Virus record (IMG/VR): IMGVR_UViG_3300046542_000227
Coordinates: 1 to 64,000 of that record
DNA: 64,000 nt
Source of the DNA: a virus
Direction: 5' to 3' (one strand)
Every line of letters starts with the position of its first letter. Position 1 is the first letter of the stretch. The notes beneath the pieces are model-generated. The model made no database searches and had not been told where the DNA came from. It saw nothing but the letters and a program-made list of their open reading frames with translations. Shown piece after piece: positions 4,555 to 49,554 of this stretch. The position numbers and the translations under genes were made by a program.

Positions 4555-5202
4555 TCAAGCGATTAAGGTAGCAGGAATCGTTGGCAGAGCTGCGAGTGTG
4601 CTTGCAGCTTCGATCTGATCCTTCAACACCCAACTAGCGGCGTAGATATTCGAGCCAGCTACCAGAGCAGCATCACACATGGCAAGCAATTCCGCTGGAG
4701 TCAACGGATAGCCCACGTTTTCGGTACTGCGGAACATGGTGGTTTGATCGCTGCTGGCCGCCAACAGGAACTGTGCCAACCCTTTGAGGATGAGCAAGTT
4801 CAAGCGGTCTTCAGGACGGAGTTGAACGCCGAAGATAGTCTCTTCATCTTTCTCATAAATGAAGCCCGAGGCCAGGTCCTTCTCACGCAGCGCCAAGACC
4901 TGATCCGACAGCAGACGTTTACGGTCAGCCAACAGCACCACTTCTTCTGCTGCGGTGTATTCACGCACACTCCAGGTTTGGGTGTACTGACCATCGAGCA
5001 GAGTGGGTGTACCTTCCGTAACCACATCACCGTTAGGGCGGTCAGTAGGGTAAACCACTGCGAAGCCATATTCAGCGAGGCAGTCCTCGGTCGGGTTTTC
5101 AGGGAAGCTGACTTCCGGATTGTCCACGCGCACTTGTTGGAAGTACACCGGGTACGCACCAGTAGCCACTTTAAGCAAAGCAGTACTTGCAGTAATATCC
5201 AT
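4555..5202 (-). CDS. Tail-fibre assembly-like protein (DUF4376-like C-terminus)
   Basis: This 215-residue protein lies directly after the collagen-like fibre gene, the usual place for a fibre chaperone or assembly factor. Residues 1-95 include LDGQYTQTWSVREYTAAEE. The rest (about 95-205) resembles the DUF4376 region of such proteins: a helical start, GFIYEKDEETIFGVQLRPED, then two helices ending in KDQIEAASTLAALP. An AAAGAGA ribosome site is present. The DUF4376 match is by eye, so the family label is moderate. The alternative is a small capping protein of the fibre. Confidence 0.55.
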   Translation of the reverse strand: MDITASTALLKVATGAYPVYFQQVRVDNPEVSFPENPTEDCLAEYGFAVVYPTDRPNGDVVTEGTPTLLDGQYTQTWSVREYTAAEEVVLLADRKRLLSDQVLALREKDLASGFIYEKDEETIFGVQLRPEDRLNLLILKGLAQFLLAASSDQTTMFRSTENVGYPLTPAELLAMCDAALVAGSNIYAASWVLKDQIEAASTLAALPTIPATLIA

Positions 5203-40154: not shown

Positions 40155-40769
40155 ATGTCACTGAACGTGCCACCGATGGGTACTCGTGGGCTGTATAGTC
40201 TGAAAGCACCGTTCTCTACGGTTGCTAACCAACTGTACACCTGCACGGCTATCCGTTTCTTCAAGGACATCCAGAACCAAGGCACGGATGTCTTTGCCAA
40301 GTACTACGAACCGAAAGGTCTGAGCCAAGCGGACTACACTCGCGATCTGGCGGCTAACGTCGCCATCGTGTCGTTGACCAGTGAGACCCAGGCTCCGATC
40401 TATATCCCCAGCTCCTACATCTTAAGCTTCCCGGGACTGACCAGCTTTAACTACCAGCAAGTCGTGCTTAGCGCGACACTGGGGGCGCTGCCAGATACCT
40501 TGGACTTGACCTTCCTGAAAACCCAGGTGGCTACGACCATCGCTGCGGTACTCGGGTTCGTCCCAACGATCTATGAGAACGTTGCAGCTTCGACTGGGGT
40601 GATCACACCAGAGCAACACGATGCGCTCGAAGCAGCGCGTCAGGCAGGGGTGACTAACCAAACCACCGACTATGCCCGGTACATTGAGGAACGTGATAAG
40701 CGCATTGTCCTCGAACAAAAACTGGCGGCCTTGGAACAACTGATGATCAGTAAGGGCGTCTTGAACTAA
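40155..40769 (+). CDS. Unknown virion-like protein
   Basis: This 204-residue protein starts MSLNVPPMGTRGLYSLKAPF. A beta region follows to about residue 110 (PIYIPSSYILSFPGLTSFNY). It ends in a helical part with a predicted coiled coil (ARYIEERDKRIVLEQKLAAL). Such a fold suits a small structural component. AAGGA precedes the ATG. It is 40 bases after the preceding virion-like gene and 39 before the next. No family is recognised. Confidence 0.6.
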   Translation: MSLNVPPMGTRGLYSLKAPFSTVANQLYTCTAIRFFKDIQNQGTDVFAKYYEPKGLSQADYTRDLAANVAIVSLTSETQAPIYIPSSYILSFPGLTSFNYQQVVLSATLGALPDTLDLTFLKTQVATTIAAVLGFVPTIYENVAASTGVITPEQHDALEAARQAGVTNQTTDYARYIEERDKRIVLEQKLAALEQLMISKGVLN

Positions 40770-40808
40770 CCAACCATATGTAGTTACCTTCTGCAACTGG
40801 AGTATCCC

Positions 40809-43313
40809 ATGAGTAAAAATCTGGAATGGCTGGAGCGCGTCTCGAAAGAATCTGCTGAGACGGCCAGCATCAAACCTGAAGGCGTGGATCTGAGCGCTGA
40901 CAGTGAAGCTGCCAACATTGTTGGTGGTGACGAAAAGCTGACCAACGAAGGCAAGAGCTCCGCCAACCACAGTGTTGATCTGAAAGACGCTACCGTGCCT
41001 GACGACAACGCTGACGCAGCTGATGCCGATAAGCAAATTGGCGTCAAGGTTTCTGCCGAAGACAATGGCCCGGACTTCAATATCGATCTGAAAACCGGCA
41101 AGCCGTCTGTTGAAGACGAGCAAACTGACGAAGAGAAAGAAGCTGCTGAAGCCGAAGCTGCCGCGGCAGCCGCTGCTGGTGATACCGGTGAAGCTGGCGC
41201 TGAAGGCGTACCGGGTGAGCCAGGTGAAGGTGGCGAAGCTACCGACCCAATCGTTGAAGTGCCGGTTGAAGGCGCTCCGGGCGAAGATGCTCCAGGTGAT
41301 GGCGGCGACGCCGTTGCTCCGACCGAACCAGTAGAAGGCGTTGAACCTGCTGCCGGTGAACCACCTGTTGATGGCGAGCCTCCAGTAGAAGGCACCGAGC
41401 CTGGTGCTGACGACCTCCCTGTTGTTGAAGGCACTGACGCTGTACCGGTTGAAGCCGGTGAGCCTGTGCTGCCAGAAGGTACTGATGGCGTTGCTGGCAC
41501 TGATGCTGTGGCTGAGCTCGAAGGTGGTGATGCTGCCGCTGTCGACCCAACTGCTGATTCGGGCAAGGTCATGATCGCTGTTGATCCGGTCACCGAGATC
41601 AAAGAAGGTCCTGAAGCTGCTGCTGAAGCAGCTGTGGCCGAAGGCGCTACCGAAACCCCACTGACCAACGAAGAACTGCCAGAAGGCACCGAAGCTGTTT
41701 CGCAAGAGGGCTTCTCGGGTGGTCTGGTCGGTTTCCTCGTCGGCGGTATGGGTTGGGCTCCATTCGTGGGTGCCGGCGTAAACGGTGCCGTTAAGGCCAA
41801 GCGTCTGAAGATGCAGCAGGACATCGAAGCGATCTCCAAGCGTATCGCCAAGATCCGTGCCGGTGATATCGAAGACGCCAAGAAGAATGGCATGACCATT
41901 CCGAAAAGCGCTCAAGGTGTGGACTGGATGGAAATCGCCAAGTCCGCGGTCCTGGGTCAGTTCCTCGGCCCGATCTACGGCGCTCGTCAGGGTAACCAGC
42001 TGCAGAACCTGAACAACGAACTCACTGCCAAGCTGAAAGAGTTGGAAAAGGAGATCGAAGCTGCTGGTATCTCCAACGAAGACTTCGAGCTGGCTGATGA
42101 AGCCGAACCTGAAGTTGCCATCGACGACATGGCTGACGACGACATCACCAGCGAGTTCGACGCTGTTGGCGAAGACGTTTCCAGCCTGGGTGAAATGGGC
42201 GCTGCTCTGGAAGAGTACAACTCTATCCTGCGTGCTGAAACCAATGCTGGTCGTCCGTTCAGCCCTGCGCTGGTGCGTGCTATCAAGATCGGTCTGGAAC
42301 ACTACAACGAACCTTTCCTGCTGGAAGGTGCTCCGTCGGTAGAAGACTTCTCCGATAACATCGGCAAGTTCACCGTCAGCAACGAGTTCGCTGAAGGTCT
42401 GGGCGCTAAAGCCAAGGCTGTGGGCGGCGCTATCATCGAGGCCATCAAGAAGCTGATCGCCAAGCTGGCTGACATCGCTGCTGATATGATGCACAACGTC
42501 GGCAAGCTGCAAGAAGCCAACGATGCGCTGGGCAAACAAGTCGCTGCACTGAAGTCTGACGTTAAAGGTCAGATCGATGTTTCCTCGGCTACCCGTTTGC
42601 TCGTGGGTGGTGAGTTCGCTGGTGACAACGCGCAGAACTACGCGCGTGTTCGTCAGTTCTGCGACAAGTTCATGGTTGACTATCCGAAGTTCAACCGTGG
42701 TCTGGCCATGGGCATCATGAAAGTCATCGAAGAGATGCACGCCCAAGGTATGCAGAAGCTTCCGCCTGAAGAGATCGCTAGCGTCTTCGAAAGTCAGTTC
42801 CACCCAGGTATGTTCGGCGTACTGGCGATCGGTAAAGACGATGTTAAAGAGATGGCTGGCTTTGACTCGCTGTTTGCCTCGCCGGTGCTGTTGGGCAACC
42901 GTCGTATGGTGGTGGGCAAGTCTGAGATGGCCAGCAAGAACGGCATCGCAGCACTGTCCAGCTGCTGGAAGGTTTCGCTGGTTGCAGGCGCTGTCGGTGC
43001 AAACCCAGCTCTGTCGGTAGCGCTGCCTGATCCACAGCAACTGCGCAACATCGTCAAAGAACTGGATGCGCTGGTTAAGGCTATCCCGAACTACGCCGGT
43101 GCGGCCAAGAAAATGGCCAGCGATCAGAACCTGTTGAAGGTCTACACCCATCCGTGGGTTTCCGGTGAACTGCAACACGCAGCCTCCGGTCTGGTAGCTT
43201 CGATGACTACACCTACTGGCCACCTGGTCGGTTACGTGGCTAACCTCGTTAAAGTCGGTCAAGCATTCGTAGCGAGCTGCGTAGCTCAACACAGCGCTGG
43301 CGCCAAGGCGTAA
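40809..43313 (+). CDS. Large protein with 300-residue acidic leader, possible internal head protein
   Basis: Of 834 residues, the first 300 are extremely acidic and Glu/Pro/Gly/Val-rich (repeated VEGxEPxxGEPP and EGTDAV units). The leader ends at VSQE, where a Gly-rich hydrophobic run begins (SGGLVGFLVGGMGWAPF). phiKZ-like prohead proteases are reported to cut after S/A/G-x-E, so cleavage after Glu300 is plausible. The remainder is helical (ELTAKLKELEKEIEAAGIS) and its last 400 residues align by eye with the next gene product. This looks like a processed internal capsid protein. GGAG precedes the ATG and a terminator follows. Confidence 0.65.
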   Translation: MSKNLEWLERVSKESAETASIKPEGVDLSADSEAANIVGGDEKLTNEGKSSANHSVDLKDATVPDDNADAADADKQIGVKVSAEDNGPDFNIDLKTGKPSVEDEQTDEEKEAAEAEAAAAAAAGDTGEAGAEGVPGEPGEGGEATDPIVEVPVEGAPGEDAPGDGGDAVAPTEPVEGVEPAAGEPPVDGEPPVEGTEPGADDLPVVEGTDAVPVEAGEPVLPEGTDGVAGTDAVAELEGGDAAAVDPTADSGKVMIAVDPVTEIKEGPEAAAEAAVAEGATETPLTNEELPEGTEAVSQEGFSGGLVGFLVGGMGWAPFVGAGVNGAVKAKRLKMQQDIEAISKRIAKIRAGDIEDAKKNGMTIPKSAQGVDWMEIAKSAVLGQFLGPIYGARQGNQLQNLNNELTAKLKELEKEIEAAGISNEDFELADEAEPEVAIDDMADDDITSEFDAVGEDVSSLGEMGAALEEYNSILRAETNAGRPFSPALVRAIKIGLEHYNEPFLLEGAPSVEDFSDNIGKFTVSNEFAEGLGAKAKAVGGAIIEAIKKLIAKLADIAADMMHNVGKLQEANDALGKQVAALKSDVKGQIDVSSATRLLVGGEFAGDNAQNYARVRQFCDKFMVDYPKFNRGLAMGIMKVIEEMHAQGMQKLPPEEIASVFESQFHPGMFGVLAIGKDDVKEMAGFDSLFASPVLLGNRRMVVGKSEMASKNGIAALSSCWKVSLVAGAVGANPALSVALPDPQQLRNIVKELDALVKAIPNYAGAAKKMASDQNLLKVYTHPWVSGELQHAASGLVASMTTPTGHLVGYVANLVKVGQAFVASCVAQHSAGAKA

Positions 43314-43320
43314 CTTGTTG

Positions 43321-43351
43321 AGGGTGGGCAACCACCCTCTTCTATTTCTTT
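43321..43351 (+). terminator. Rho-independent terminator
   Basis: Stem AGGGTGG/CCACCCT with a GCAA loop, followed by CTTCTATTTCTTTT. It lacks the CATAA/TATG flanks. Confidence 0.85.
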
Positions 43352-43361
43352 TGAGGTTGAC

Positions 43362-44555
43362 ATGAGCGTAGCTGAATTTAATCAGGTTCGCCGTGACGTC
43401 GATCACATGCACAAACTCTCCTGTGCACTGGAAGCCTATCAGGAACTGCTCGGTGGCAAAGATATCGCCGCCGGTAGTGCTGAAGGACGTGCCATCAGTC
43501 TTGGGTTGGAATCTATCGACCCGAGTATTGACTTGAAGGAAGGTTCTTTCATCACGATGCGCGTAATCAAGGAAGGCATCATCAAGGTGGCTAAGGCTAC
43601 CCGTGAAGTCGTCCGGTTGCTGTTCGAGGTGTTGGGTAACCTGTACGTCAAGTTCACAGGCAGTTTGGGTCGGGTTCGTGGTCACCAGAAAAACGTTGCC
43701 AAGCGACTAGGTCGTCTGGGTAGCCGTGTGTCCTACAAACAAATGGAAATCTCTGGCATCAACCGGCTGTCGGTAAACGGTACCTTCGTAGGTGACGATC
43801 CGAACACGCTGGTCGGTATCCGTGCGGTTTCCGAATTCCTGCTCAATCAACACCCGGCGATGGTTGTGAAGGTTGCACGTCTGTGCAGTCGTCGCTTCTT
43901 GGATCTGGTCGACAACGGAAGCGGCTCCGATGCACAAGCTACGGCTCGTGCTGGGATGACTGTGTTCCTGCAGGTAATGCAGACGGCGATGAAACCTATC
44001 GTCGGTGAGCAGCCTGTTAAGAACGGCGAGCTACCACAGTCGTTTGAGGCAGGGCGTTACAACCGCAGTGCAGTGATGCCGGGTAACTGGGCATTGGTCT
44101 ACACTGCAGTGGCTGATCAACTACGTGAAGCCAGCAGCATCAACATCAACACGTACGGTAATGTGATCAAGCAAGCTTTCAAGATTGACTTCTTGGAGCT
44201 GACCATGAACACCGCTGACCGTGCGGCACGTACTGTCGACGTACCCTCGATTCAAACCTTGGGTCAGTTGGTAGACGGGATCTCTAAGGTCCTTGACGTT
44301 GCTGAGAAGGCCGAGACTGGTCGTCGTGACTTTGCTACAGTGAAGGTCGTGGTGGATGATGCTATCCGTCAAGTGATGGACCTGCCGACGAATGACGGTA
44401 AGTTGAACGGTACTGTGATCCAGATGTTGGGTGCACTGTCGGAAACGATGGCGGCTCCAATGGGTAACTTCACTCACTGGGTTGCGGTAACACTGAACAT
44501 CTACCTGAACTACATCGATCATTGCATCAAGCATTACGAAGTAGAAGGCGTCTGA
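43362..44555 (+). CDS. Paralogue of the preceding internal-head-like protein
   Basis: This 397-residue helical protein aligns with the last 400 residues of its upstream neighbour. ALEAYQELLGG parallels ALEEYNSILRA, and NRLSVNGTFVGDDPNTLV parallels TRLLVGGEFAGDNAQNYA. The C-terminal HWVAVTLNIYLNYIDHC parallels GYVANLVKVGQAFVASC. It lacks the acidic leader. Duplicated internal proteins processed by the prohead protease are typical of phiKZ-like heads. TGAGG precedes the ATG. A flanked terminator follows. The assignment as head protein is inferred. Confidence 0.65.
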   Translation: MSVAEFNQVRRDVDHMHKLSCALEAYQELLGGKDIAAGSAEGRAISLGLESIDPSIDLKEGSFITMRVIKEGIIKVAKATREVVRLLFEVLGNLYVKFTGSLGRVRGHQKNVAKRLGRLGSRVSYKQMEISGINRLSVNGTFVGDDPNTLVGIRAVSEFLLNQHPAMVVKVARLCSRRFLDLVDNGSGSDAQATARAGMTVFLQVMQTAMKPIVGEQPVKNGELPQSFEAGRYNRSAVMPGNWALVYTAVADQLREASSININTYGNVIKQAFKIDFLELTMNTADRAARTVDVPSIQTLGQLVDGISKVLDVAEKAETGRRDFATVKVVVDDAIRQVMDLPTNDGKLNGTVIQMLGALSETMAAPMGNFTHWVAVTLNIYLNYIDHCIKHYEVEGV

Positions 44556-45736: not shown

Positions 45737-45765
45737 TTGATTCGAATTAATCTGAGAACTATATT
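45737..45765 (+). promoter_or_regulatory. Early-type promoter (TTGATT-17-TATATT)
   Basis: -35 TTGATT (45737-45742), 17-base spacer, -10 TATATT (45760-45765). The spacer repeats GAATTAATCTGAGAAC almost exactly as in the promoter at 28957. It drives the island 45825-47495. Confidence 0.75.
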
Positions 45766-45771
45766 GCGTAA

Positions 45772-45801
45772 GTGAATTAGGAGCAATGAGTTCCTAATCA
45801 C
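45772..45801 (+). promoter_or_regulatory. Conserved 5' leader hairpin
   Basis: GTGA-A-TTAGGA pairs with TCCTAA-TCAC (one bulged A) around GCAATGAGT. It lies about seven bases after the -10 element. A TCAGGAGA ribosome site follows. Confidence 0.65.
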
Positions 45802-45824: not shown

Positions 45825-46193
45825 ATGTTGAACACTATCGCTCGATACATGCTGATCCGCGCTCTGTCGATCATCACCGCTCTGACCCTGCTGGCTGTCT
45901 GGGGTGCTGTGGCTAACAACATGGCTGAACGCAAAGACAAGAAAGCACGTGACGCGAAAGCGAACACTGCTGTTAACCAAGTCAAAACCATGCTGGAAGC
46001 ACTGGCCTCGGAAGTCGAAGCTATGCTGCCACGCTACAACGAATCGAACCTGGTCGAGCGTGCCAATCTGAAAGCTGACCTGCGTGAAGTTTACAACCTC
46101 AAAGGTCGTCAGATCGAAAACGGTAGCGTTCGTGATATCTATCTGACTTCGGTCGATCAGATCATCACCAAGGCTTTTACCGTAGAAGCTTGA
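45825..46193 (+). CDS. Small membrane-anchored early-type protein
   Basis: This 122-residue protein has one N-terminal transmembrane helix (RALSIITALTLLAVWGAVAN, about 12-31). A highly charged helix follows (MAERKDKKARDAKANTAVNQ), then an amphipathic coiled-coil-like tail. It is first in the island after a strong early-type promoter, leader hairpin and AGGAG site. It could be inserted in the inner membrane with a cytoplasmic helix. No family is recognised. Its stop overlaps the -35 box of the next promoter. Confidence 0.7.
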   Translation: MLNTIARYMLIRALSIITALTLLAVWGAVANNMAERKDKKARDAKANTAVNQVKTMLEALASEVEAMLPRYNESNLVERANLKADLREVYNLKGRQIENGSVRDIYLTSVDQIITKAFTVEA

Positions 46194-46218
46194 TTGAAAA
46201 AGATTTGAAGTATATATA
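46190..46218 (+). promoter_or_regulatory. Early-type promoter (TTGATT-17-TATATA)
   Basis: -35 TTGATT (46190-46195) overlaps the stop codon of the gene before it. A 17-base spacer and -10 TATATA (46213-46218) follow. The layout is as at 28957 and 45737, but the spacer sequence differs. Confidence 0.6.
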
Positions 46219-46229
46219 GCCTCAGTGAA

Positions 46230-46253
46230 TTGGGAGTCGTAATGGCTCCCTAA
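46230..46253 (+). promoter_or_regulatory. Conserved 5' leader hairpin
   Basis: TTGGGAG pairs with CTCCCTAA (one bulged T) around TCGTAATGG. The preceding AGTGAATT matches the segment before the 45772 hairpin. A CGGAG ribosome site follows. Confidence 0.6.
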
Positions 46254-46278
46254 CCTTCTTATATTCGGAGTATTTAAA

Positions 46279-46656
46279 ATGAACGTACAAGCAATCGCAA
46301 CTAAAGCAGCAATCGGTGCAGTAATCGGCGGTGTAGGTTTCGGTCTGTACAAGCTGGGTTCCAGCCTGTGCCGTCAAGGTCGTGAAGTGATCCAACTGGG
46401 TCAAGCTTCGATCGATATGCACAAGCACATGGACGAAGTCATTGCCGGTAACAAAGATACTGGTGACGGTTGGGAAACCAATGCCCGTGCACAGCTGACT
46501 CTGCTGTGGGAACAAACCGCAACTCCTGCTGCTCGTAAATGCAAGTACTACGATGACGTCACCAAAAGCGTATTCATGCGCTTCGACAAACTCATCGCTG
46601 AAACCATCGCTACCAAACCAACGTCGATCGACGATACCCCGGAGCCAAAAGAATGA
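46279..46656 (+). CDS. Small Gly-rich membrane-associated early-type protein
   Basis: This 125-residue protein has an N-terminal Gly-rich hydrophobic segment (AAIGAVIGGVGFGLYKLGSS, about 10-29) that resembles a small transmembrane or channel-type helix. A helical soluble part follows, with DMHKHMDEVIAGNKDTG, and an acidic Pro-rich end. Its last codons overlap the next ATG (ATGA). GGAG lies upstream of the ATG. The Gly-rich segment recalls AALYTAGAAVVGGGCFLAYR in the gene at 47012, so the two may be distant paralogues. Early action at the host membrane is a guess. Confidence 0.65.
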   Translation: MNVQAIATKAAIGAVIGGVGFGLYKLGSSLCRQGREVIQLGQASIDMHKHMDEVIAGNKDTGDGWETNARAQLTLLWEQTATPAARKCKYYDDVTKSVFMRFDKLIAETIATKPTSIDDTPEPKE

Positions 46657-46799
46657 GCCTCAAAGACAAAGCCGTACAAGCCAAACGCGACATCGCTGAT
46701 ATCGCTAAGGTTACCTTCAAAGGTGTTGAAGACGGCGTCAAGGTTGGCGCTGCCTTCCTGCCAATGATCATCGCCATGGCTATCATCAGCCGCATCTAA
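46653..46799 (+). CDS. 48-residue amphipathic/membrane peptide
   Basis: This very short gene overlaps the previous stop (ATGA), which suggests coupled translation. The 48-residue product is charged at the start (MSLKDKAVQAKRDIADIA) and ends in a hydrophobic run (GAAFLPMIIAMAIISRI) long enough for one membrane helix. The length and the ATGA overlap support it as real. Function unknown. Confidence 0.6.
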   Translation: MSLKDKAVQAKRDIADIAKVTFKGVEDGVKVGAAFLPMIIAMAIISRI

Positions 46800-46815
46800 C
46801 TCAAGGACTACGAAC

Positions 46816-46932
46816 ATGAAAAAAGACACTAAAGACATGGCCAAATGCGTTGGTGGTCTGCTGGGCTTCGTAGTTGGTCTGTCCCTGGTAGCACTCGTGG
46901 TTAACAAGACCGCGAGTATTATCCTTGACTGA
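46816..46932 (+). CDS. 38-residue single-helix membrane peptide
   Basis: MKKDTKDMAKCVG is followed by the hydrophobic run GLLGFVVGLSLVALVVN, one clear membrane helix. AAGGA lies nine bases before the ATG. It is 16 bases after the preceding small gene, on the same transcript. The size suits a regulator or subunit of a membrane complex. Function unknown. Confidence 0.6.
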   Translation: MKKDTKDMAKCVGGLLGFVVGLSLVALVVNKTASIILD

Positions 46933-47011
46933 TTACCAGCCGGCCAGCTACAACCCAAACAACCGTCGTCAACTTACTACCCCTACCCCATCTATTCAAA
47001 AGGATAACACC

Positions 47012-47320
47012 ATGCAAACTCCAGCCAACAAACCTACCTCGATCAACGCTCAGATCAATGCTGCTGCTGAGTCCTGCGGTAAGATCGCTGAAGAAACTCT
47101 GGCGATCATCAACAAGCCTACCCTGCTCGAACGCACCAAGCGTGTTGGTCGTGGTTTCGGTAAAGCTGCTCTCTACACTGCCGGCGCTGCCGTCGTTGGC
47201 GGTGGCTGCTTTCTCGCTTACCGCGCACTCAAGGCCGGTGGTGCTGACGCAGTCGCCGAGGCAGTCGGTGATGTCGCCGCTGCAGCAGCCGATGCAGTCG
47301 CAGCCGCCTTCCGCGGTTGA
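47012..47320 (+). CDS. Small Gly/Ala-rich membrane-associated protein
   Basis: With the ATG at 47012 (AAAGGATAACACC upstream) the product is 102 residues. A polar helical start (NAQINAAAESCGKIAEETLA) and a basic stretch (LLERTKRVGRGFGK) precede one Gly-rich membrane helix (AALYTAGAAVVGGGCFLAYR). A very Ala-rich end follows (AVAEAVGDVAAAAADAVAAA), which looks like an amphipathic helix. The layout parallels the gene at 46279. No family is recognised. Confidence 0.6.
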   Translation: MQTPANKPTSINAQINAAAESCGKIAEETLAIINKPTLLERTKRVGRGFGKAALYTAGAAVVGGGCFLAYRALKAGGADAVAEAVGDVAAAAADAVAAAFRG

Positions 47321-47332
47321 TGCTGTAACCCC

Positions 47333-47352
47333 GGGGGAGGACAGCCTCCCCC
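47333..47352 (+). terminator. Intercistronic hairpin (possible attenuator)
   Basis: Stem GGGGGAGG/CCTCCCCC with an ACAG loop, then AACAACTATTATC. With no T-run it may act as a processing or stability site rather than a full terminator. Confidence 0.5.
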
Positions 47353-47381
47353 AACAACTATTATCTACAGGAAATACGAAC

Positions 47382-47495
47382 ATGCCTACCAAGAAATTTA
47401 CGGATGATCAAGAACGCGGTATCGATGCTAACCTGGCTTACGTGGAGTTCCTCCTCGCTAAGCGCAAGAAGAAAGAACTCGCAGGCAACCGCTAA
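47382..47495 (+). CDS. 37-residue highly charged small protein
   Basis: The sequence is helical, acidic then very basic at the end (LAYVEFLLAKRKKKELAGN). CAGGAA lies nine bases before the ATG, and the gene closes the early-type island just before a strong terminator. It could bind nucleic acid or an acidic partner. Reality rests on the ribosome site and its place between hairpins. Confidence 0.5.
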   Translation: MPTKKFTDDQERGIDANLAYVEFLLAKRKKKELAGNR

Positions 47496-47505
47496 TGCTG
47501 CACTT

Positions 47506-47551
47506 AGAAACATAGTACCCGGCCGCAAGGTCGGGCCTATGTTTCTTTTTT
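47506..47551 (+). terminator. Island terminator with extended palindrome
   Basis: AGAAACATAG-TA-CCCGGCC and GGTCGGG-C-CTATGTTTCT pair around GCAA, giving a 10-bp outer and 7-bp inner stem, followed by TTTTTTC. This is the longest of the CATA/TATG-flanked hairpins. Confidence 0.9.
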
Positions 47552-47557
47552 CTTTTG

Positions 47558-47586
47558 ACGGCATAAGGCCCACCCGAAGGTGAGCC
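47558..47586 (-). terminator. Terminator of the 47593 gene with CATAA flank
   Basis: GGCCCACC and GGTGAGCC pair around CGAA with one mismatch. On the minus strand it is followed by TTATGCC. It lies directly after the stop at 47593. Confidence 0.7.
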
Positions 47587-47592
47587 CTAGGT

Positions 47593-48093
47593 TTAGTCGT
47601 CTTTGCCTTTACCGCTTGGATTGATACCCATACGGCTGAAGAAGCTTTCACTGGTTTCCTGTACGTTACCAATGTGACCTTCACCGTCAACCAGTTCATG
47701 GTCGCCCAGTTTGGTTTCATCGATGTTCGGCAGGATCGCCCGTGGAGTATGGTCGGTAGGAGCCGAACCATCTGGTGCTCGCGAGAACGGGTTCTCGTTC
47801 TTCATCATCTTGATCAGTTCGACCATGTTGTTAGCCACGTCAGCGCTGGACTGACTGGTGCCTTCATCAATGGTGTTCTTACGGTCGTTGATGGCCGTAG
47901 TGTCGTGATCTTTCAGAGCAGACAACACCAGCTTGACCTCATCGAGATCGCTGGGTACGCCACCCTTGAGTTTCTCCCGGACGATGGTACGACGCACACG
48001 CTGTGAAAACGCCAGTGCTTGTTCGTACGTCATCTCATCCGGAACTTCGATCGGAGCAGCGACGGGATGCTCATTAGTATGCTGTTCAGACAT
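47593..48093 (-). CDS. Unknown acidic/helical protein
   Basis: This 166-residue protein is polar and helical in the middle (AFSQRVRRTIVREKLKGGVP, then DLDEVKLVLSALKDHDTTAI), with a flexible acidic tail ending GINPSGKGKDD. The middle loosely recalls small terminase or packaging regulators of other phages, which also count 'DxDxVxLxLxALxDxD', but the match is too weak to name. AAGGAGA precedes the ATG. It is divergent from the gene at 48204 with about 110 bases between starts, holding promoters for both. Confidence 0.6.
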   Translation of the reverse strand: MSEQHTNEHPVAAPIEVPDEMTYEQALAFSQRVRRTIVREKLKGGVPSDLDEVKLVLSALKDHDTTAINDRKNTIDEGTSQSSADVANNMVELIKMMKNENPFSRAPDGSAPTDHTPRAILPNIDETKLGDHELVDGEGHIGNVQETSESFFSRMGINPSGKGKDD

Positions 48094-48783: not shown

Positions 48784-49554
48784 ATGGACAATATCAAACA
48801 GTTGCTGACGAGCTCAGATAAGGGGCGCAGTCGGGCACAGGGCATCTTGTGCTACATGTTTCGCAACACCCTGCTCTGGAACAACGTGACGTATCATCGT
48901 TGGGTGCGAGCAACTAACTTCTACTTTGAGAAGCCACACAACAGGAAGAACCCTGACCGGGGCAATCTCAACAAAGCTTTGATTCAGGACGACTTGAGCT
49001 GGGCGTCGTTCAAGAAGGGTTTAGATCTACTGAACCCACACAAAGCGATGATGACAATCATACTGACTTGGAAGAGTGGGAAGTCGTCGACTTACACAGT
49101 CAACATCGACCTCGTGGAAGATGAAGACGATGTGATCCTTGTATCCCTTCCAGAAGCTGAAGACACTGACCTCATCACCAGCATGAGTGAACGGCACAAG
49201 AATAAGCCGAAGAACACTCTGGCTCGGTTGTACGGCCAGATCATCCGTAGTGAAGGTATTGACCTCACTCGATGGCACGCGCTGCTTGATGAGTACGCCA
49301 AGAACCCGCTGAATGGTTTTACCGGGACCAAGAAGGAAACGGCCACCACCATCAGCTCCATTCAACGCCAGTTGTTTGAACCACGGTTGTCATGGAATAA
49401 CTTCCGTAAAGGGTTAACGATTCTGGGGCCTATTCAGGAGGACTACATCCTTCGCTTGGAGTGGGTACCAGAAGTGAAACGGTTCGAGGATTACACCGAG
49501 ACCCATGTAACCATTCGTGACCCTTTTAGCACTGGACGCAACTATGTCAAATAA
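48784..49554 (+). CDS. Unknown protein with internal duplication
   Basis: With the ATG at 48784 the product is 256 residues. Two halves repeat the same pattern: LSWASFKKGLDLLNP ... TIILTW at about 85-110, and LSWNNFRKGLTILGP ... LRLEW at about 205-232. Each is preceded by a helical block with an aromatic/Trp motif (YHRWVRATNFYFE, LTRWHALLDEYAK). A ribosome site is weak. A protein with a repeated W-x-x-F-x-KGL unit was probably made by duplication. It overlaps the next gene by 11 bases. No named family is recognised. Confidence 0.65.
   Translation: MDNIKQLLTSSDKGRSRAQGILCYMFRNTLLWNNVTYHRWVRATNFYFEKPHNRKNPDRGNLNKALIQDDLSWASFKKGLDLLNPHKAMMTIILTWKSGKSSTYTVNIDLVEDEDDVILVSLPEAEDTDLITSMSERHKNKPKNTLARLYGQIIRSEGIDLTRWHALLDEYAKNPLNGFTGTKKETATTISSIQRQLFEPRLSWNNFRKGLTILGPIQEDYILRLEWVPEVKRFEDYTETHVTIRDPFSTGRNYVK

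Follow-up and report, generated by a model that had tools for sequence, protein, structure and literature searches.

What could six consecutive, very short genes crowded on the plus strand at positions 45825-47495 of a viral sequence contribute to infection? The window, that is, the whole 64,000-nucleotide stretch analysed, corresponds to bases 1-64000 of a 267,320-bp virus contig. The contig encodes a homologue of ChmA, the criterion protein for Chimalliviridae (39% over 585 aa to phiKZ gp54, E 4e-105, tblastn), and on this basis it is classified as a nucleus-forming phage of the phiKZ/chimallivirus kind. Its nearest named relative is Pseudomonas phage Noxifer (MF063068), in whose record PhuZ is annotated along with RNA polymerase subunits, including one of the non-virion type; a second relative, the 283,622-bp IMG/VR contig 3300042013_000067 (hereafter G001), was picked up via the promoter pattern discussed below. 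Profile scans of viral contigs matched only these two phages, single-protein scans of the same kind of contigs were without success, and gene 1 has no match in bacterial genomes. The six genes and the two downstream genes that anchor the locus are the following:

45825-46193, plus strand: gene 1, 122 aa, predicted N-terminal membrane helix, then an all-helical domain
46279-46656, plus strand: gene 2, 125 aa, Gly-rich N-terminal helix and helical domain
46653-46799, plus strand: gene 3, 48 aa, short N-terminal part and C-terminal membrane helix ending in ISRI
46816-46932, plus strand: gene 4, 38 aa, single Gly-rich membrane helix
46925-47320, plus strand: gene 5, 131 aa from TTG 46925, or 102 aa from ATG 47012
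47382-47495, plus strand: gene 6, 37 aa, no membrane helix, basic tail
47593-48093, minus strand: flanking anchor, orthologue of phiKZ169 and NOXIFER_185 (tblastn to phiKZ, E 5e-18)
48784-49554, plus strand: flanking anchor, orthologue of phiKZ171 and NOXIFER_187 (86% identity to Noxifer, 41% to phiKZ)

The presence of six consecutive very short genes, first proposed in an earlier note made from the sequence, is borne out: the ORFs can be regarded as real genes because they are conserved in order in two other phages and because the differences among the three phages fall mostly on third codon positions in each of the six. The same genes occur in the same order and on the same strand at Noxifer 167589-169337 (NOXIFER_179-184, all annotated "hypothetical") and at G001 148113-149797. 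These two loci also share with the window the two promoter cassettes, the inter-gene hairpin and the long terminator, whereas the identity of their proteins to those of the window is only about 28-62%. Gene 1 corresponds to NOXIFER_179 (36% identity) and G001 148113-148484 (31%), with a conserved C-terminus, RDIYLT(S/T)V, and gene 2 to NOXIFER_180 (32%) and G001 148569-148925 (28%). Gene 3 displays 46% identity to each of its two orthologues and gene 4 42-47%, while gene 6, with 61-62% to both, carries the conserved motif ID..LAYVE(F/Y)LLA(K/R)R and ends in the very basic tail that had been noticed earlier, AKRKKKELAGNR. The orthologues of gene 5 are NOXIFER_183 and G001 149209-149619; its product comprises a basic stretch, a Gly-rich membrane helix and an Ala-rich C-terminal helix. 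TTG 46925 may serve as the start of gene 5, which would then overlap the gene 4 stop, since the 23-29 codons thereby added are open in all three phages and partly conserved (MTD..Y.P.SY). The longer form, with the extension at window 46925-47011, is also the one annotated in the Noxifer record. An alternative ORF overlapping gene 5 (47058-47495) was set aside, its conservation being explicable by gene 6, which lies in the same frame, and by the Ala-rich codons of gene 5. In a literature search, for which subscription papers were mostly beyond reach, no published description of the six genes as a unit was found, nor any expression, localisation or phenotype data for them or for phiKZ166-168.

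A common property of the products is a hydrophobic or Gly-rich helix, found in five of the six proteins (genes 1-5) rather than in the four first counted; they do look like membrane peptides, as first described. The Kyte-Doolittle maxima over 19 residues are 1.91, 1.63, 1.94, 2.57 and 1.43 for genes 1-5, respectively. At a cut-off of 1.3 the island contributes five of six, compared with 28 of 120 other small conserved genes (hypergeometric P 0.005), and at 1.6 four of six, compared with 19 of 120 (P 0.01). Membrane insertion of these five proteins is a well-supported prediction. In the AlphaFold models of genes 1 and 2, built on only three sequences each, the N-terminal helix is of low confidence and the helical domain scores well; for gene 1 the helices span residues 3-30, 38-73, 76-95 and 100-117, with a pLDDT of about 83-92 in the helical domain. 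Positive-inside reasoning by eye would place the soluble parts of both proteins in the cytoplasm.

The regulatory elements surrounding these genes are:

45737-45765, plus strand: promoter 1, TTGATT-N17-TATATT, before gene 1, predicted early (vRNAP-type), Noxifer clade
45772-45801, plus strand: leader hairpin 1, -14.6 kcal/mol, 5'-terminal, starting at the inferred transcription start
46190-46218, plus strand: promoter 2, TTGATT-N17-TATATA, before gene 2, overlapping the end of gene 1
46225-46254, plus strand: leader hairpin 2, -12.1 kcal/mol, stem at 46232-46250
47333-47352, plus strand: inter-gene hairpin, GC-rich, between genes 5 and 6, without a T-run
47506-47560, plus strand: intrinsic terminator after gene 6, stem of 10 + 7 bp (17 pairs) and T-rich tail

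Both promoters are members of a repeated cassette, TTGAYT-N17-TATATW, followed six bases on by GTGAATTRGGAG, and the inferred transcription start is the G of GTGAATTAGG. With exact spacing, eight copies are present in the contig, promoter 1 included, all on the plus strand; the cassette positions are 28957, 45737, 46190, 79302, 140439, 150889, 243072, 243535 and 246131, the first three lying in the window. Across the three genomes there are about nine strong copies per genome, again all on the plus strand, and most copies stand before a first gene that can be recognised as common to all three phages. Promoter 1 scores 55 bits and promoter 2 scores 39.9 with the cassette matrix, values that are inflated since the matrix was derived from these same copies. 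Minus-strand scores in the contig all fall below zero, and the best ones of the three genomes taken together are near or below zero. The matrix separates the two promoters from chance, which a generic sigma-70 scan does not. A matching second cassette is found at the place of promoter 2 in both relatives. The earlier statement that all the genes follow two promoters holds for genes 2-6; gene 1 follows only the first, because promoter 2 stands before gene 2.

The assignment of these promoters to an early type, made in the earlier note, agrees with a phiKZ-like early core. An AT-rich TATATW motif lies at about -10 and is repeated before presumed early operons, as in promoters of the phiKZ type, and such motifs proved to be early promoters in jumbo phages with profiled transcription (PMC7598289). 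In phiKZ, 28 early promoters are read by the injected polymerase, independently of the host polymerase (PMC13282480). The island core, TTTGARA..TATATT, resembles the TATATTAC early promoters of phiKZ, which are recognised by the virion RNA polymerase and share with the cassette a TTTRARA..TATATT core and a TGA just past the inferred start. Unlike them, the cassette mostly reads TATATTG or TATATAG instead of TATATTAC and bears a clade-specific TTGAYT element 17 bp upstream, which the phiKZ sites inspected do not show, together with a 5'-terminal hairpin. A related core, GAGCCTATATCAC, lies upstream of chmA in all three genomes. The similarity of the promoter motif to the phiKZ early promoters makes early transcription of the island a well-supported proposal.

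The first base of the leader hairpin coincides with the inferred mRNA start. Most cassette copies in the contig precede such a 5'-terminal hairpin, a feature shared with Noxifer and G001. For 22 leaders from the three genomes the mean folding z is -3.1, compared with -0.13 for random 36-mers from the same genomes. A fixed-register covariation count is uninformative here because the loop lengths differ, and a register-free arm-swap test was used in its place. Upon exchange of the 3' arms among the leaders, the mean energy rises from -9.45 to -5.92 kcal/mol, and the observed value is reached in none of 5000 permutations. Since the arms vary and yet pair better with their own partners than with swapped ones, complementarity is apparently maintained and the hairpin is under selection. 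The early mRNA leaders of phiKZ give no selected hairpin signal (mean z -0.02), which distinguishes them from those of the island. For the leader hairpin, the obvious guess would be a contribution to the stability of the mRNA. The hairpin between genes 5 and 6 is likewise kept in Noxifer and G001, with arms that have changed and are still complementary; taking into account this conserved form, the changed arms and the missing T-run, it is possibly an mRNA-stabilising or processing element. The terminator, which had been described as unusually long, is indeed long (-27.9 kcal/mol, z -5.0), and both relatives have equally long stems of different sequence.

The codon usage of the island, evaluated with the major capsid and ChmA genes as reference, is far above that of other small genes and suggests that its products are abundant. 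Taken as one set, the island genes reach a codon adaptation of 0.647. Random draws of six small genes give 0.346 +/- 0.042, with none of 20,000 as high as the island, and the same six proteins written with genome-average codons give 0.439 +/- 0.026. Among all conserved genes, the codon bias of gene 3 is second, behind that of the major capsid gene.

The position of the island can be traced well beyond the two close relatives. The upstream genes at 40155-44555 match phiKZ161-163 and the downstream genes at 47593 and 48784 are the phiKZ169 and phiKZ171 orthologues (tblastn), which places the island between a phiKZ163-like virion gene and the phiKZ169-171 block. In phiKZ this interval holds genes 166, 166.1, 167 and 168, with a hydrophobic stretch in 166.1, 167 and 168, and TATATTAC motifs precede 166 and 166.1, that is, two copies of an early-promoter-type motif, as the island has two promoters. 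In PhiPA3, Psa21, 201phi2-1, Phabio, Viktualia, HPP-Temi and RVTF4 the interval contains small membrane-helix proteins together with a TATATTAC or TATATCA motif. The search of jumbo phages for the same gene order, suggested in the earlier note, is thus answered in part: the order itself recurs in Noxifer and G001, and eight others (phiKZ and these seven) have comparable clusters, alike in lying upstream of the phiKZ169-170-171 block, in the promoter-type motif and in the one-helix small proteins, but different in gene number and sequence. Serratia phage Moabite, the only distant relative looked at, has no such cluster, and the island may therefore not be a core requirement. SbcC is encoded directly upstream of the interval in several of these phages and elsewhere in Noxifer. 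Within phiKZ 171854-173792, the products of 166.1, 167 and 168 look like uncharacterised early membrane proteins, and PhiPA3, 201phi2-1, Phabio, Viktualia and HPP-Temi appear to possess counterparts of phiKZ167, with a helix at the C-terminus.

At the level of individual proteins, the correspondence with phiKZ is faint. The best match of the gene 5 profile among 1920 phiKZ ORFs is the syntenic phiKZ168, at a weak E of 0.011, with a shared NKPTL....K+VG ahead of the helix; the reverse search with phiKZ168 returns gene 5 third, in one genome only and at a non-significant E of 1.2. Genes 1-4 and 6 have no match among the phiKZ ORFs. We read these intervals as one locus with a conserved class of role and a fast-evolving content.

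The clade has a second early locus, at contig 243107-243839, Noxifer 97156-97873 (NOXIFER_102-103) and G001 83343-84055, behind the two cassettes at contig 243072 and 243535. It resembles the island in its promoter cassettes and membrane-helix proteins and differs in being separate and made of two genes. The NOXIFER_103 family, represented in the contig itself at 243624-243839, is a clear paralogue of gene 5 (HHalign 98%, E 5e-15), and NOXIFER_102 is weakly similar to phiKZ103 (E 0.009). The gene 5 paralogue and the last RVTF4 gene of the interval (53 aa) share a YLAYQAL.GG motif, better than shuffles do; a database search with the RVTF4 protein recovered no relative. Several more small genes with hydrophobic helices follow the second locus, up to contig 247935. 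Short membrane-helix proteins behind early-type promoters are also seen in NOXIFER_110 (Noxifer 100920-101105) and phiKZ 010.1 (4570-4719), which have the C-terminal motif VI.GHR..P.G.E.LV in common.

The earlier remark that nothing resembles a known family remains valid insofar as no database family fits, and has to be amended for gene 5, with its weak positional phiKZ168 match and its clear paralogue at the second locus. Profile searches of the island in Pfam, PHROGs, NCBIfam, PADLOC, Rfam and PDB gave sub-threshold matches or none, and in Foldseek searches the models of genes 1 and 2 singled out nothing beyond the Noxifer orthologues; gene 1 does draw PDB matches, mostly to globins, but at E about 1 or worse they carry no meaning. 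A relationship of gene 2 to phiKZ gp241 was dropped because the short local match (P 0.009) occurs in one of three orthologues and because the gp241 matches listed are all from phiKZ-like Pseudomonas phages.

Taking into account that the island proteins are inferred to be early, abundant and membrane-inserted, and that the phage first lives in a vesicle derived from the inner membrane, the membrane of this vesicle is suggested as their site. Early phage infection (EPI) vesicles appear to be inner-membrane-derived, early transcription takes place there, and the defence protein JukA detects early phage proteins that are anchored there (PMC13282480). The vesicle is described as a membrane compartment made by the phage, across which nucleotides and mRNA have to be exchanged, through channels still to be identified, and what the many tiny genes of jumbo phages do is counted among the open questions (PMC12908238, PMC13282480). 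We tentatively propose, giving it somewhat less than an even chance, that the island is an operon switched on early and strongly, whose small inner-membrane proteins act on the inner membrane of the host or on the EPI vesicle. The co-injected virion RNA polymerase would transcribe it from the two promoters within minutes of DNA entry, yielding mRNAs that would open with a stable hairpin and close at the strong terminator. Host ribosomes would then make five short proteins, each inserting by one helix, and one small soluble basic protein, the helical domains of genes 1 and 2 probably facing the cytoplasm. These proteins would act at the host inner membrane and at the vesicle derived from it, which holds the genome, where they may coat, stabilise or remodel the membrane or tether phage factors to it. 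The proposal is favoured by the retention of gene order and both promoters in three phages, in which protein identity has dropped to about 30-60%. Action at the vesicle is hypothesised solely from timing and membrane helices, any inner-membrane role fitting equally, and the fast divergence of the proteins speaks against it in that it would suit an arms-race role too.

Such a role might be superinfection exclusion or another envelope defence, in which the inner-membrane proteins would stop the DNA injection of a second phage. Early, abundant, single-helix proteins would suit such a use, as small membrane exclusion proteins do in other phages, and sequence divergence at a fixed locus fits competition between phages; six co-conserved genes, however, exceed what exclusion usually needs, no similarity to any known family is found, and, according to a review, a cell infected by two nucleus-forming phages can contain separate nuclei (PMC12908238). 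We consider this explanation rather unlikely. A set of anti-defence proteins, shielding the vesicle or blocking membrane-acting immunity, is not a likely answer either. Anti-defence genes are usually gained or lost singly, whereas all six genes are retained together in three phages, and no PADLOC match is obtained, the PADLOC models covering defence rather than anti-defence; on the other side stand the fast divergence at a conserved locus, the early promoter type, the high codon bias and the fact that, in Pseudomonas, the vesicle or nucleus-forming stage is where Juk (through its pores), Avs5, Dionysus and Ophion act (PMC13282480). The earlier note had suggested that such a set could remodel the host envelope or block superinfection; the sequences fit this, a vesicle role and anti-defence alike.

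Lysis is very improbable indeed. The idea of a holin or spanin draws on UniProt A0A1Y0T0N3, the gene 2 orthologue NOXIFER_180, which is named 'Holin' there and hypothetical in GenBank, and on a marginal match of the window gene 1 protein to the Rz-like spanin family PHROG 1152 (E 0.013). The name is probably automatic, since no family match found supports it, and NOXIFER_179 gives no PHROG match up to E 0.1. A holin would be expressed late beside an endolysin; here the promoters, from which timing is deduced, are early-type, the annotation of Noxifer shows no endolysin around the island, and the phiKZ endolysin gp144 is some 25 kb away from the syntenic locus. It is also quite improbable that host sigma-70 RNA polymerase, and not the phage polymerase, reads the island. 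The TTGAYT-17-TATATW arrangement does look the part, with -35-like and -10-like hexamers exactly 17 bp apart in the strong copies, but the conserved upstream element is TTGAYT..A and not TTGACA, and the core resembles that of the phiKZ early promoters, which do not depend on the host enzyme (PMC13282480).

If the island is indeed an early operon of inner-membrane proteins, a bolder extension, which we consider doubtful, is that a dedicated, fast-evolving locus of the Pseudomonas chimalliviruses encodes the phage-made protein complement of the EPI vesicle, including candidate coat, channel and tether proteins. For the Noxifer clade, the cassette with its leader hairpin offers a ready marker of early operons. 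An early locus of conserved position, with probably abundant membrane proteins, yields a short list of candidates in laboratory phages, namely NOXIFER_179-184 and phiKZ166.1-168, and proteins of this type are also what vesicle-sensing defences could detect.
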